Positions 511 to 61,991 of a stretch of DNA of 64,000 nucleotides are shown piece after piece. The first letter of the stretch is position 1; every line of letters begins with the position of its first letter. The DNA comes from Thermotomaculum hydrothermale. GTDB lineage: Bacteria > Acidobacteriota > Holophagae > Thermotomaculales > Thermotomaculaceae. Both the position numbers and the translations under genes were made by a program. The stretch spans positions 62,001 to 126,000 of the forward strand of contig NZ_AP017470.1 in NCBI RefSeq assembly GCF_016592575.1, written 5' to 3'. The notes under the pieces were generated by a model. It was not told the DNA's origin. It saw only the letters and a program-made list of their open reading frames with translations, and did not search any database.

Positions 511-709
511 CAGGGAGCGGTTCGCCTTTCAATCAGGCGATTCCATTTAAGCCGGGACACCCTGTCAGAATTCATGTGCATATAAGCACTAAATTTTGTT
601 TAGGAACCGGCTTATGGAAAGCAAAGTGAGGCAATGACCTCGGATAAATGAATGAAGAATCCCTGATAATGCTAAAAAGCAAAGGTGAACCGATAGATAT
701 ATAACCTTT
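511..709 (+). ncRNA. Candidate bridge/seek RNA region of the IS110 element
   Basis: The non-coding stretch just 3' of the transposase holds an ordered series of stems. Arms 523-527/535-539 form 5 bp. Arms 548-555/607-614 form 8 bp and enclose two small hairpins (556-559/563-566 and 576-579/586-589). Further stems are 628-631/638-641 (4 bp) and 681-686/704-709 (6 bp). IS110-family elements are known to encode a guide RNA (bridge RNA or seekRNA) in a non-coding end, and in the IS1111 subgroup this lies 3' of the transposase. The structure is seen by eye; the guide function is inferred. The target-binding loops cannot be assigned without the left end and the empty site. Confidence 0.55.
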
Positions 710-740
710 AACCTGAATTCAAGAAAGGAGGTGAAACAAA

Positions 741-973
741 AAAATTATTTCCCCACTTGACTTTGTTTATAAATGAATTTTAGATTGAGGAAAGATTTTT
801 TTAATTAAATGATTTTTACCTTAATCCATAATTCAGCATCCAGAATCCAAAATTCATAATTTTTAATATTTATCCTGTCCTGAACCATGAACCTAAAACC
901 TTAACTTCTCTCTTTTTTGAAACATTTTTTATTTTTAAAAGTATATTTAGTTAAAATAAATGCGAGGGTGTCT
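741..973. other. AT-rich intergenic stretch without a gene
   Basis: There is no coding sequence between the IS110 tail and the ABC ATPase gene. A strong Shine-Dalgarno-like AAGGAGGTG at about 724-732 has no sensible reading frame behind it and may be a leftover of a gene cut by the insertion. Positions 820-870 show loosely repeated ATAATTC/CCAGAATCC words. A possible weak promoter (TTGAAA at 917-922, TATATT at 942-947, 19-base spacer) could serve the ABC operon. Confidence 0.4.
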
Positions 974-1888: not shown

Positions 1889-3150
1889 GGGGATTTTTCA
1901 GGTTTCTGTTTTACGATTATAAATCTAAATGGGGAAACCTTATTACAATAGTTATTTTTATTGCATTGCCTATAGTTATGTCTCTTTTAATGACAGTTGT
2001 TTTTGGCAGGGGGAATAAAGAGGCTTCATTTGAACCCCCTAAAATTGCACTTGTAAACAAAGATGACGGTTTTTTGTCAAAGGGTTTTGTAAAGTTTCTT
2101 ACAAATGATGAGATGAAAAAAGAGTTTAACTTTGTTTTAACCGATTATGAAAAAGGCTATAAAGGAATGAAAGACCAGGATTACTCTGCAATTTTAATTA
2201 TTCCTGAGAAGTTTACCGATGATTTTTTAGAGGAAAAATCCCCGGAGGTTATTCTAATTAAAAACCCTTCCCAGGGGATTTATCCTGAAATGGTTGAGAC
2301 AATGCTTTCTCTAATGACAGAGGGGACAAATTATCTTTTAACCTATTACTATCCGCAATTTAAAGAGGCAAGTGAGATTTATAAGAGTATAAAAAATCAG
2401 ACAATTTTGCCAAAATTGATTTTTCTTGATTTCGGTAAGTTGAAAGATTTAGGGAAGGATTTTTTTAAAAAATCTAAAAACCTGATAGATGTGGTTAAAA
2501 ATCAATCCTTTGAGGTTAAATTTGAGAAAAGAGTAAAAGAGAAAAAGAGTAAAAGGTTTATAGATTCCCTTTTCCCCGGATATGCATTATTTTTTCTCCT
2601 GTTTTTTGCAAATATTGTTGCTGTTTCAATTGTTAAAGAAAGGGGAATGGGCATTAGCAAAAGGGTTTTGCTGACAGATTTTTCTGTAAACAAATACCTT
2701 TTAGCAAAGGTTGTATCTGGAGTTTTTTTTCTTTTCTCCCTTTCCATAGTTTTTGTTTTAAGCGGGTATTTTATTTTTCACATAAAAACTGATATGTTTT
2801 TTTTGTTGTTTTTCATTATTTTTCTTTCCTGCTTTTCCCTCTTTTCAGTATTCTTTTTAACCTCTTCCCTTGCAAAAAATGAAGCCTCTGCTTCAAACCT
2901 TGGAATGGTTGTTCTCTTTCTTATGGGTTTCACAGGCGGGGGAATGATTCCTTTAAATTTAATCCCTCAATTTCTAATTTCTTTTTCAAAGTTTTTGCCG
3001 TTTTACAGGTTAAATATGCTTTTTGCAGATTTGTTTAACAAATCAAGTTTTAATTTAGACAATGCACTTTACTCGCTTTTCTTTTCCCTTGTTGCTTATT
3101 CTTTAGGCTTTATTTTTTTTAGAAAAAAATTGATTTCAGGTGAGTTATGA
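1885..3150 (+). CDS. ABC-2 type permease, first subunit
   Basis: A 421-residue integral membrane protein with the ABC-2 layout: one N-terminal membrane segment (about 15-38), an extracytoplasmic domain of roughly 190 residues, then about five membrane segments from residue 230 to the C-terminus. It starts with TTG at 1885, overlapping the TGA of the ATPase gene; AAGGAG at 1871-1876 supports this start and no ATG lies nearby. It very likely forms a heterodimeric export channel with the next gene product. Relatives export drugs, antibiotics, sodium or wall precursors, and nothing here narrows the choice. Confidence 0.85.
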   Translation: MRGFFRFLFYDYKSKWGNLITIVIFIALPIVMSLLMTVVFGRGNKEASFEPPKIALVNKDDGFLSKGFVKFLTNDEMKKEFNFVLTDYEKGYKGMKDQDYSAILIIPEKFTDDFLEEKSPEVILIKNPSQGIYPEMVETMLSLMTEGTNYLLTYYYPQFKEASEIYKSIKNQTILPKLIFLDFGKLKDLGKDFFKKSKNLIDVVKNQSFEVKFEKRVKEKKSKRFIDSLFPGYALFFLLFFANIVAVSIVKERGMGISKRVLLTDFSVNKYLLAKVVSGVFFLFSLSIVFVLSGYFIFHIKTDMFFLLFFIIFLSCFSLFSVFFLTSSLAKNEASASNLGMVVLFLMGFTGGGMIPLNLIPQFLISFSKFLPFYRLNMLFADLFNKSSFNLDNALYSLFFSLVAYSLGFIFFRKKLISGEL

Positions 3151-4223
3151 GGGGATACTTCTTTCTTCTTTTTAAAGAGGTAAAATTAATGTTTAAAAAT
3201 AAAAGTTTTTACCTGTGGGTACTGTTTATGCCTATTTTGTTTCTCATAATTTTTTCAAGGATAGGGGGAGGGGATTCAAAAGTTAAAGTGATATTTATAG
3301 ACAAAGTGAAAAATGAGATAACGAAGGAGTTTAAGGAAAGGTTAAAAAGGGATTTTAAGATAATAATTGCGATGAAGCAATTAAAAGAGTATACCCTCAT
3401 TGAATTATCCGGTGATTTTCTGTTGAAAAACAAGGAAAATACAAAGGTAAAGGTTATTTTCCCTGAAAATATTTCAAAGGAAAGAGAGGTTTACACAAAG
3501 ATTGCAGTTTATAGAATAATGGCTGAGTTGGTTGCAAAGTATAAGTTGGGAATAAAGGATGTAAAAGAATTTGTGAGGATAAAAAAGCAGTGTGAAAAAT
3601 TACTTGAAATCCCCTGGGGAATAAGGCACACATTGCCTGCAATTATTCTAATGTTTATCCTGTTCAATGTGCTTTCAAAGGGGGTTGAAAAGTTTTTCCA
3701 ATTTAAAGAACAGGGTTTGATAGAAAGGTTTTCAGTACTCCCTCAAGGAACAAACGGGGTGTTAATATTTTTTCTTCTCTATCAGGTAACACTTGCTATG
3801 GTTGCGGTTAGTGTTATTTTTATACTTGGGGTTTTGTTTTTTAAATTTTCAATCGGGTTAAAGTATTTGATTTATCTTTATTTTATATTTTTGTTTTTTT
3901 CTATCTTTGTTGCTTCATTATCCCTTCTCATTTTCTCTCTTATTAAGAAAAAGGAAGCAGCTATTGGCTTTGGTGTTTTAATTGCAAATATACTCTGTGC
4001 ATTAGGGGGGTTATGGTGGCCTATTGAGATTGTTCCCCCATTTTTTAAAAAATTAGGGCTGGCCTTACCGACTGGTTTTACAATGAAAATTATTGACGGG
4101 TTAATTTATTACAAAATGCCTGTTAAAGAGTTGATGCCAATGGTTTTTGTTTTAATTGCAATATCTGTTTTATTCTTTTTAGCTGCAACCTTTTTCTTTT
4201 TTAAGTTTCAGGAGAAGGATTGA
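3147..4223 (+). CDS. ABC-2 type permease, second subunit
   Basis: A 358-residue permease with the same architecture as its upstream neighbour: a membrane segment near 22-38, an extracytoplasmic domain to about 155, then a cluster of hydrophobic segments to the end. The ATG at 3147 overlaps the upstream TGA by four bases. ATPase, permease and permease in one tight unit is the standard layout for heterodimeric ABC-2 exporters. No accessory membrane-fusion protein is nearby, so export probably crosses the inner membrane only. Substrate unknown. Confidence 0.85.
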   Translation: MRGYFFLLFKEVKLMFKNKSFYLWVLFMPILFLIIFSRIGGGDSKVKVIFIDKVKNEITKEFKERLKRDFKIIIAMKQLKEYTLIELSGDFLLKNKENTKVKVIFPENISKEREVYTKIAVYRIMAELVAKYKLGIKDVKEFVRIKKQCEKLLEIPWGIRHTLPAIILMFILFNVLSKGVEKFFQFKEQGLIERFSVLPQGTNGVLIFFLLYQVTLAMVAVSVIFILGVLFFKFSIGLKYLIYLYFIFLFFSIFVASLSLLIFSLIKKKEAAIGFGVLIANILCALGGLWWPIEIVPPFFKKLGLALPTGFTMKIIDGLIYYKMPVKELMPMVFVLIAISVLFFLAATFFFFKFQEKD

Positions 4224-56961: not shown

Positions 56962-57267
56962 ATGACACTAAATAAATACAACATAGAAGTATTTGGAAAA
57001 GAATTTACTATATCCTCAAAAGAAAAAGAAGAGCATGTTTACAAGATTGTAAATTACCTTGACGCAAAAATGAGGGAGGTTTCATCCCAGACCGGGGTGA
57101 TAGACTTTTACAATGTTTTGTTGTTAACTTCCATTGTCCTTGTTAACAACTATTTAACATTGTTAGGAGATTGTAATAAAAAAGAAAAAGACTTAAAGTA
57201 CGCCAAAAAGATTAAAGAGTTAATTAACCTGATTGACAGTTCTTTGGAAAGAAAAGATTTCCTGTGA
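56962..57267 (+). CDS. zapA: Cell division protein ZapA
   Basis: A 101-residue protein: the N-terminal beta part with YNIEVFGKEFTISSKE and the long C-terminal helix fit ZapA, which cross-links FtsZ filaments at the division site. The typical LLTSIVLVNNYL stretch precedes the helix. 6S RNA follows at once, an arrangement known in many bacteria. Confidence 0.88.
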   Translation: MTLNKYNIEVFGKEFTISSKEKEEHVYKIVNYLDAKMREVSSQTGVIDFYNVLLLTSIVLVNNYLTLLGDCNKKEKDLKYAKKIKELINLIDSSLERKDFL

Positions 57268-57424
57268 AACCCGTGATGGTGGGCAAATTTTGAGCCAACA
57301 CCATATTTTAGGGAGTCAGATATTCCAGGGGCGAGCAGGCCTGATTGTTACAGGAAGCCCGAACTGGAATAGAGACGCCCACCTGACGAGGTCAGGGTCA
57401 AATATTGCCGCCACACGGTTTCAC
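57264..57424 (+). ncRNA. ssrS: 6S RNA
   Basis: The closing stem pairs GTGAAAC-CGTG (57264-57275, one bulged C) with CACG-GTTTCAC (57414-57424), 11 pairs. Inside, GGTGGGC at 57278-57284 pairs with GCCCACC at 57377-57383, and the sequence contains the usual TGAGCCAACACC and CACCTGACGAGGTCAGGGT-like parts with a large interior asymmetric bubble. 6S RNA binds the housekeeping RNA polymerase and lowers transcription in stationary phase. Position between zapA and rny supports this. A perfect TTGACA at 57233-57238 may be its -35 box, although the -10 region is poor. End points are accurate to a few bases. Confidence 0.88.
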
Positions 57425-57458
57425 GGGGTTTTTCGTGGCGTAAGATGGGGAGGTTGAA

Positions 57459-60847: not shown

Positions 60848-61991
60848 ATTTTTTCTTTTATCTCTTTTTCTGGTTTTATTTATTTCCTGCGGTGGTGGAA
60901 GTGCAAAAATTTCAGCAAATTTAAATCCACAAAATTACCCATTTTTAGGAAGCGGTAAATTTGAAGGCAGTTACTTCCCAACACAATCTTTCAGGGAATG
61001 CACCCCTGAAGAGGTGGGGATGGATTCAAAAAAACTCGTTAAGGTTTACAATTACGCAGCCAACCCAAACATAAAAACAGAAGGTTTAATAATATTGAGG
61101 CACAACTATATCGTTTTTGAAACATACTTGAATGGTTTTACCCCAGACACTTTGCACGAAAGCTACTCTATTGCAAAGAGCATATCGTCTTGTTTAACAG
61201 GGATTGCAATAGACAAAGGCTATCTTACAGATGAAAATGTATTTGTGAAGGATTTTTACCCCCAATGGGATGACCTTCCAGATTCAGATTGCAGGAATAA
61301 AATTACTGTAAAAAATCTGCTTACAATGACAAGCGGGCTTGAATGGAACGAACACGATTACTATGGAGATACATCTCAAAACGACGCTTTTATAATGTAC
61401 CAGAGCGCAGACAATTACCTTGAATATGTTTTAAGCAAAAACTGTATTCACCAACCTGGTTCCTTTTTCAACTATTCAAGCGGGGATTCAATGCTTTTAA
61501 GCGGAATATTGAAAGAGGCAACAGGGGAAGATGTTGAACAGTTTGCCGTTGAAAACCTCTTTGACAAAATTGGGATAGAGAGACATTACTGGCAGAGGGA
61601 TAATGCAGGAAATGTTATTACAGCGTGGGGGATAGGTTTAACCTTAAGGGATTATGCAAGGTTTGGTTTGCTTTACCTTCATAAGGGTAACTGGGATGGC
61701 AATCAGATTGTAAGTAGAGAGTGGGTTGAAAAATCAACATCTCCAGCCTATCAAAACATTAACTGGTACGGTTATTCATTCTGGCTAATGCCTGTTTTCT
61801 CTGATTATCAAAATTATAACCTTCCCTCTGATATTTACCTTGCATGGGGTATTCATACCCAGCAGATTTTTGTAATCCCTGATTATGACATTGTTGCGGT
61901 AAGGCTTGGGAACGACAATGACCCTGAGCATGATGACTGGGTTGAAACAGAGTTTTTAAAACTTGTAATAGATTGCGTGAAGGATAAATAA
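60834..61991 (+). CDS. Serine hydrolase of the class C beta-lactamase family, probable lipoprotein
   Basis: A 385-residue exported protein: signal peptide ending in a lipobox-like FISC (residue 19), then the beta-lactamase/DD-peptidase fold (PF00144). The catalytic S-x-x-K is SIAK in HESYSIAKSI, and the Tyr motif is in FFNYSSGDSM. A KTG-like third motif appears as IHT in AWGIHTQQ. Relatives include esterases and D-peptidases; the substrate is unknown. The ATG at 60834 is chosen because it begins a signal peptide; the upstream ATG at 60798 would put 12 residues before it. It overlaps the end of rsmA. Confidence 0.82.
   Translation: MKKIKFFLLSLFLVLFISCGGGSAKISANLNPQNYPFLGSGKFEGSYFPTQSFRECTPEEVGMDSKKLVKVYNYAANPNIKTEGLIILRHNYIVFETYLNGFTPDTLHESYSIAKSISSCLTGIAIDKGYLTDENVFVKDFYPQWDDLPDSDCRNKITVKNLLTMTSGLEWNEHDYYGDTSQNDAFIMYQSADNYLEYVLSKNCIHQPGSFFNYSSGDSMLLSGILKEATGEDVEQFAVENLFDKIGIERHYWQRDNAGNVITAWGIGLTLRDYARFGLLYLHKGNWDGNQIVSREWVEKSTSPAYQNINWYGYSFWLMPVFSDYQNYNLPSDIYLAWGIHTQQIFVIPDYDIVAVRLGNDNDPEHDDWVETEFLKLVIDCVKDK

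Follow-up and report, generated by a model that had tools for sequence, protein, structure and literature searches.

A predicted guide RNA in the right end of an IS110-superfamily insertion sequence with IS1111-type anatomy

Published seekRNAs of IS1111 elements occupy the same position, and carry their guides in the same order, as the RNA that we predict here (PMC11187229; PMC11208160); in IS110-type RNAs the guide order is reversed (PMC11187229). A promoter created by the joining of the ends has been described for these elements (PMC11187229), and regulation has been shown by experiment in ISPpu9, which has a related arrangement (PMC8450116). The window, i.e., the whole stretch of 64,000 bases that was analysed, comprises bases 62001–126000 of a single contig of 2,317,141 bases. 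Judged from the sequence, its region 511–709 is very probably the guide RNA (a bridge RNA or long seekRNA) of an insertion sequence that belongs to the IS110 superfamily and has the anatomy of the IS1111 type, because the sequence beside the insertion sites can be read in two of its short segments. The element is complete and present in multiple copies, is inserted precisely at a TG core in arrays of 7-bp units, and carries two guide segments, one for each side of the target, arranged in the IS1111 order. It is a new example among the RNA-guided transposons, a kind discovered only recently.

Anatomy of the element and its target

The transposase belongs to the IS110 superfamily but departs from the typical IS1111 protein. 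The left side of the element is cut off by the window edge, and the DNA to the left of the window was added to reconstruct the whole element. The 3′ part of the DEDD transposase gene, with a match to Pfam PF02371, lies at 1–508 on the forward strand; the whole gene spans contig positions 61390–62508 (G000:C1, as for all contig positions below), starts left of the window, and encodes 372 aa. Over its full length, the protein matches PF01548 (2.9e-22) and PF02371 (8.3e-19), the domain content that defines the superfamily, and in the alignment its D, E, D, and D residues and the serine of its SG motif are in register with those of IS621. Its motif GQCPKIRESG fits only the broader pattern G--P----SG and not the IS1111 pattern GL-P----S(t)G, and its length lies outside the 330–350 aa of IS1111 transposases. 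In a tree of 18 proteins built to examine the IS110/IS1111 split, the branching around this protein is not resolved. Outside the genus, the closest transposases share about 30–33% identity with it; the named genomes that we searched for close relatives yielded only transposases with ~30% identity, apart from a same-genus Acidobacteria MAG (JALWHA010000140.1), and none was found in the viral contigs searched.

The complete element and its other copies, the recovery of which had been proposed as a check of the original prediction, were obtained. Counted from the left TG to window base 773, the element is ~1517 bp long, and the genome holds six full copies that are 95–99% identical, with identical and sharply aligned ends: c1 (61–62 kb, the window's own), c2 (1255 kb), c3 (608 kb), c4 (319 kb), c5 (605 kb), and c6 (438 kb). 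The ends read (TG)TTGC-TATAAACAAAGTCAAG on the left and CTTGACTTTGTTTATA-AA(TG) on the right. Here TATAAACAAAGTCAAG (contig 61263–61278) and CTTGACTTTGTTTATA (756–771, forward strand, with a −35-like TTGACT inside) form 16-bp subterminal inverted repeats, within the 7–17 bp of IS1111 elements. These repeats are separated from the ATG by ~127 nt of non-coding DNA and from the stop codon by 263 nt; the longer end is downstream of the transposase gene, as in IS1111. The transposase frame ends at 508, and the non-coding right end occupies 509–773. Within it, a near-perfect Shine-Dalgarno-like stretch, AGAAAGGAGGTGA (722–734, forward strand), has no gene behind it; its segment GAAAGGAGGTG is kept in three of the four same-genus relatives in the alignment, and AGAAAGGAGG is present in the transposase leader too.

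Related contigs of the same-genus genomes break inside the element. A shortened relative in a sister species (L065, G003:C153, ~3025–3409) has lost most of the gene with both ends kept and resembles a non-autonomous derivative. Two copies of the element in inverted orientation enclose a single 525-aa gene (contig 604733–609530), presumably an AAA-ATPase/nuclease of a type often repeated in genomes.

All six copies sit between genes in an AT-rich array whose 7-bp units read RATTNTG and which lies next to the palindrome ATTGAGGAA...TTCCTCAAT, and many unoccupied copies of this target repeat exist in the genome. The right half of the target, at 776–870, consists of the array and the palindrome of this dispersed intergenic repeat, and the same sequence occurs at many unoccupied places; the repeat was also seen at contig 601860–602050, 1059460–1059660, and 1256970–1257140, among others. 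The array pattern RATTNTGRATTNTGRATT occurs on the contig 18 times on the reverse strand and once on the forward strand. The TG core lies at 774–775 (forward strand) at the right junction and at contig 61257–61258 at the left, and the 7-bp phase is kept only with a single TG: when the flanks are joined with one TG, the lag-7 identity pooled over the six copies is 0.81, and other offsets give at most 0.48. Uninterrupted relatives of the joined c2 site align without gaps across the junction (e.g., 601857–601962 at 87%). The preserved phase and the ungapped uninterrupted sites indicate that insertion is precise around the TG core and, as in IS1111, without target duplication beyond the shared core. 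Related elements in two further same-genus genomes have ends that border either AAATTTTG, or a sequence close to it, at the left or ATGRATT at the right.

A structured RNA region with predicted guides for both target strands

The region downstream of the transposase gene is strongly structured. At 506–715, the fold energy is −65 kcal/mol (z = −5.0); the corresponding value for 200 dinucleotide shuffles is −44.4 ± 4.1 kcal/mol, and no shuffle folded as well. Folding is strong on the reverse strand too (z = −4.2), which is usual for inverted repeats. The minimum-energy fold of the predicted RNA (511–709, forward strand) is enclosed by an outer stem that pairs 518–529 with 681–692, the latter in a region found at 76–83% identity in the genomes G001 and G003. 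An 8-bp stem of TAAGCCGG (548–555) and CCGGCTTA (607–614) closes the putative target arm and contains an internal stem and one clear hairpin, GUGC/GCAC at 576–589, which lies between the target guides in both the minimum-energy and the guide-constrained folds. The second clear hairpin (628–641) is outside the 8-bp stem, within the outer stem. The structured non-coding region after an IS110-family transposase is therefore as originally predicted; of the 8-bp stem said to enclose two small hairpins, the stem and one enclosed hairpin stand and the other hairpin has to be placed elsewhere. Among the six copies, 511–709 differs at positions 513, 568, and 572 only, and same-genus relatives carry just the 3′ third of the RNA. 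A search of the element's right end against Rfam, at gathering and relaxed thresholds, returned no known family. Elsewhere in the window, a 6S RNA gene is located at 57256–57433 (Rfam RF00013, 91.7 bits).

Two segments flanking the 576–589 hairpin match the target. The top-strand target guide UCAGAAUUCA (565–574) complements TGAATTCTGA, the right flank of c3, and the bottom-strand target guide UAAAUUUUG (590–598) is identical over 9 nt to the left flank, TG core included, in c1, c3, and c5; the left-flank match falls to 7 nt in c6, 6 nt in c2, and chance level in c4. The TG and the right target are complementary to the first guide, and the left target with the TG is identical to the second, so that the predicted target-binding loop matches both target sides including the core, as in bridge RNAs. 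At c3, the two guides account for 10 + 9 = 19 matched bases, a score reached by none of 5000 dinucleotide shuffles (maximum 16) and none of 2370 control pieces of the window (maximum 15). The top-strand match lies 5′ of the bottom-strand match, which is the IS1111 order. Loops that match the flanks are what was anticipated for a likely guide RNA, and the 16-bp subterminal repeats, the longer downstream end, and the leading top-strand guide agree with the 3′ position proposed by analogy with the IS1111 subgroup. When the guide test was applied to relatives, matches with the top-strand guide first, at scores seldom attained by shuffles, were obtained for a Klebsiella element and for most copies in G276; the relatives in G349, G055, and Haloarcula gave nothing usable.

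Of the three positions at which the RNA differs among the copies, two lie in the top-strand guide. The variant UCAUAAUCCA, carried by c4 and c6, combines 568 G>T with 572 T>C and is a perfect 10-nt complement of TGGATTATGA, the right flank of c2 and c5. However, the guide present in c2 and c5 is the other variant, and the sites occupied by c4 and c6 are of the AATT type, so that in these four copies the own right flank is better fitted by the variant that they do not carry. In c2 and c5, one of the two mismatches at the variant positions is a G-U pair, and the flanks of c4 match the guides poorly on both sides. This discordance between variant and flank could reflect trans action, gene conversion among the copies, or a guide that tolerates mismatches. 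As the better-matching variant for c2 and c5 is borne by other copies, the RNA of one copy may also act in trans on another. The two natural variants in one genome, each perfectly fitting a real site, preserve a modest record of retargeting in nature, and through them trans action becomes testable.

The layout of guide, hairpin, and guide recurs at 620–650, where both sides of the circle junction are matched over just 5 + 7 bases. The possible donor guide AGCAA (620–624) complements the left-end TTGCT, and AUAAAUG (644–650) equals the right end TTTATAAATG; the hairpin GAGG-CAAUGA-CCUC (628–641) lies between them. Both matches are weak, the joint score being equalled by 115 of 5000 shuffles (about p = 0.02), and the 5-nt guide omits the core; this segment is a plausible, weakly supported candidate for a donor loop. 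Another donor guide considered, GCAA at 631–634, was set aside because AGCAA at 620–624 matches one base more, both matches being weak. Joined with a single TG, the ends would give the circle junction TTTATAAATGTTGCTATAAAC and a TTGACT-17-TATAAA promoter (−35/−10 with a 17-bp spacer), which integrated left ends lack; a promoter score of this size is not rare, as 98 of 2000 shuffles reach it. We propose that the element excises as a circle, in which the joined-end promoter would drive the transposase gene and the downstream RNA. After processing, the RNA would be bound by the DEDD transposase; the first arm of the RNA would pair with both strands of the array around the TG and the second arm with the circle junction, and strand exchange at the TG would insert the element.

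Possible regulation and other readings of the structure

The transposase leader is structured as well (z = −4.6 for the sense and −3.8 for the antisense strand). Two hairpins, GAGGTCTATGCCTC and GAGGTCTGTGCCTC, lie within a GGGCCTATT/AATAGGCCC stem of the leader outside the window (contig ~61283–61355), and same-genus relatives have one such hairpin only. The stretch 623–642, which includes the donor-arm hairpin, recurs twice in antisense in the left end: the antisense of the two leader hairpins resembles it at up to 18 of 20 bases, a match found in 0 of 300 shuffles. Because of this near identity, the guide RNA could pair with the transposase leader, which we treat as a lead from the sequence rather than a result. 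A structure that solely regulates transposase expression, as an mRNA 3′ structure or as a small RNA acting on the 5′ leader, would draw on the same match, and the small RNAs that flank the ISPpu9 transposase gene on both sides do regulate it (PMC8450116). That the guide matches are incidental to such a function is nevertheless improbable, since it leaves 19 target-matched bases and guide substitutions that fit other sites unaccounted for, and regulation may coexist with guiding.

Guide and target are both AT-rich and the repeat is common in the genome, which would suit a match that arose as a by-product of base composition or from a captured piece of the target repeat, the stems being merely part of the DNA ends. 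We regard this as very improbable: neither the dinucleotide shuffles nor the 2370 window pieces ever attained the observed score, and a captured repeat would not give opposite-strand matches, both reaching the TG core, around one hairpin. The position after the transposase stop codon is also that expected of a rho-independent terminator or another ordinary end-of-transcript structure, but a branched structure of ~190 nt with guide matches and no Rfam family makes this explanation barely credible. For the guide RNA predicted at 511–709, a dual role can be envisaged, in which it both guides and regulates the transposase, by pairing with its own mRNA or competing for the transposase, and its guide variants act in trans; we consider this combination unlikely. 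If it were true, the trans variants would each place other copies at the second version of the target, and a near-identical family would spread over a degenerate repeat.

Comparison with known systems

The locus provides an RNA-guided insertion sequence that is complete and multi-copy, comes from a host that is most likely thermophilic, and has its guide, target, and core mapped at single-base resolution; a heat-stable relative of the programmable recombinases could find use as a laboratory tool. By anatomy the element is of the IS1111 type, and by protein it is atypical. Like the IS1111 elements with described seekRNAs (ISEc11, ISPa11, ISKpn4, and ISPst6; PMC11187229), it has its predicted RNA downstream of the transposase gene, subterminal inverted repeats, the top-strand guide first, insertion without target loss, and a repeat-like target (attC and REP there). 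It differs from them in its transposase (372 aa with GQCP here, 330–350 aa with GL-P there), its target of a 7-bp repeat array, the extra antisense hairpins in its left end, and the finding of no close relative outside the genus (best ~33% protein identity).

With IS621 and its bridge RNA (PMC11208160; PDB 8wt6), the element shares a DEDD transposase that has the serine of the SG motif, a pair of guides that cover both DNA strands on either side of a core dinucleotide, and intergenic repeat targets (REP in IS621). In contrast, the IS621 RNA is upstream with the reversed guide order, the core is CT instead of TG, long inverted repeats are lacking, and the donor loop is clear where ours is weak. 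ISPpu9 of Pseudomonas putida (PMC8450116) also inserts into intergenic repeats and has an RNA downstream of the transposase gene, a structured transposase leader, and complementary left-end and right-end RNAs. There, a left-end antisense RNA is complementary to the downstream RNA, whereas here the predicted downstream RNA resembles the antisense strand of the left end. We classify the element, on the basis of its IS1111-type anatomy, as a new IS110-superfamily member and not as a new system.
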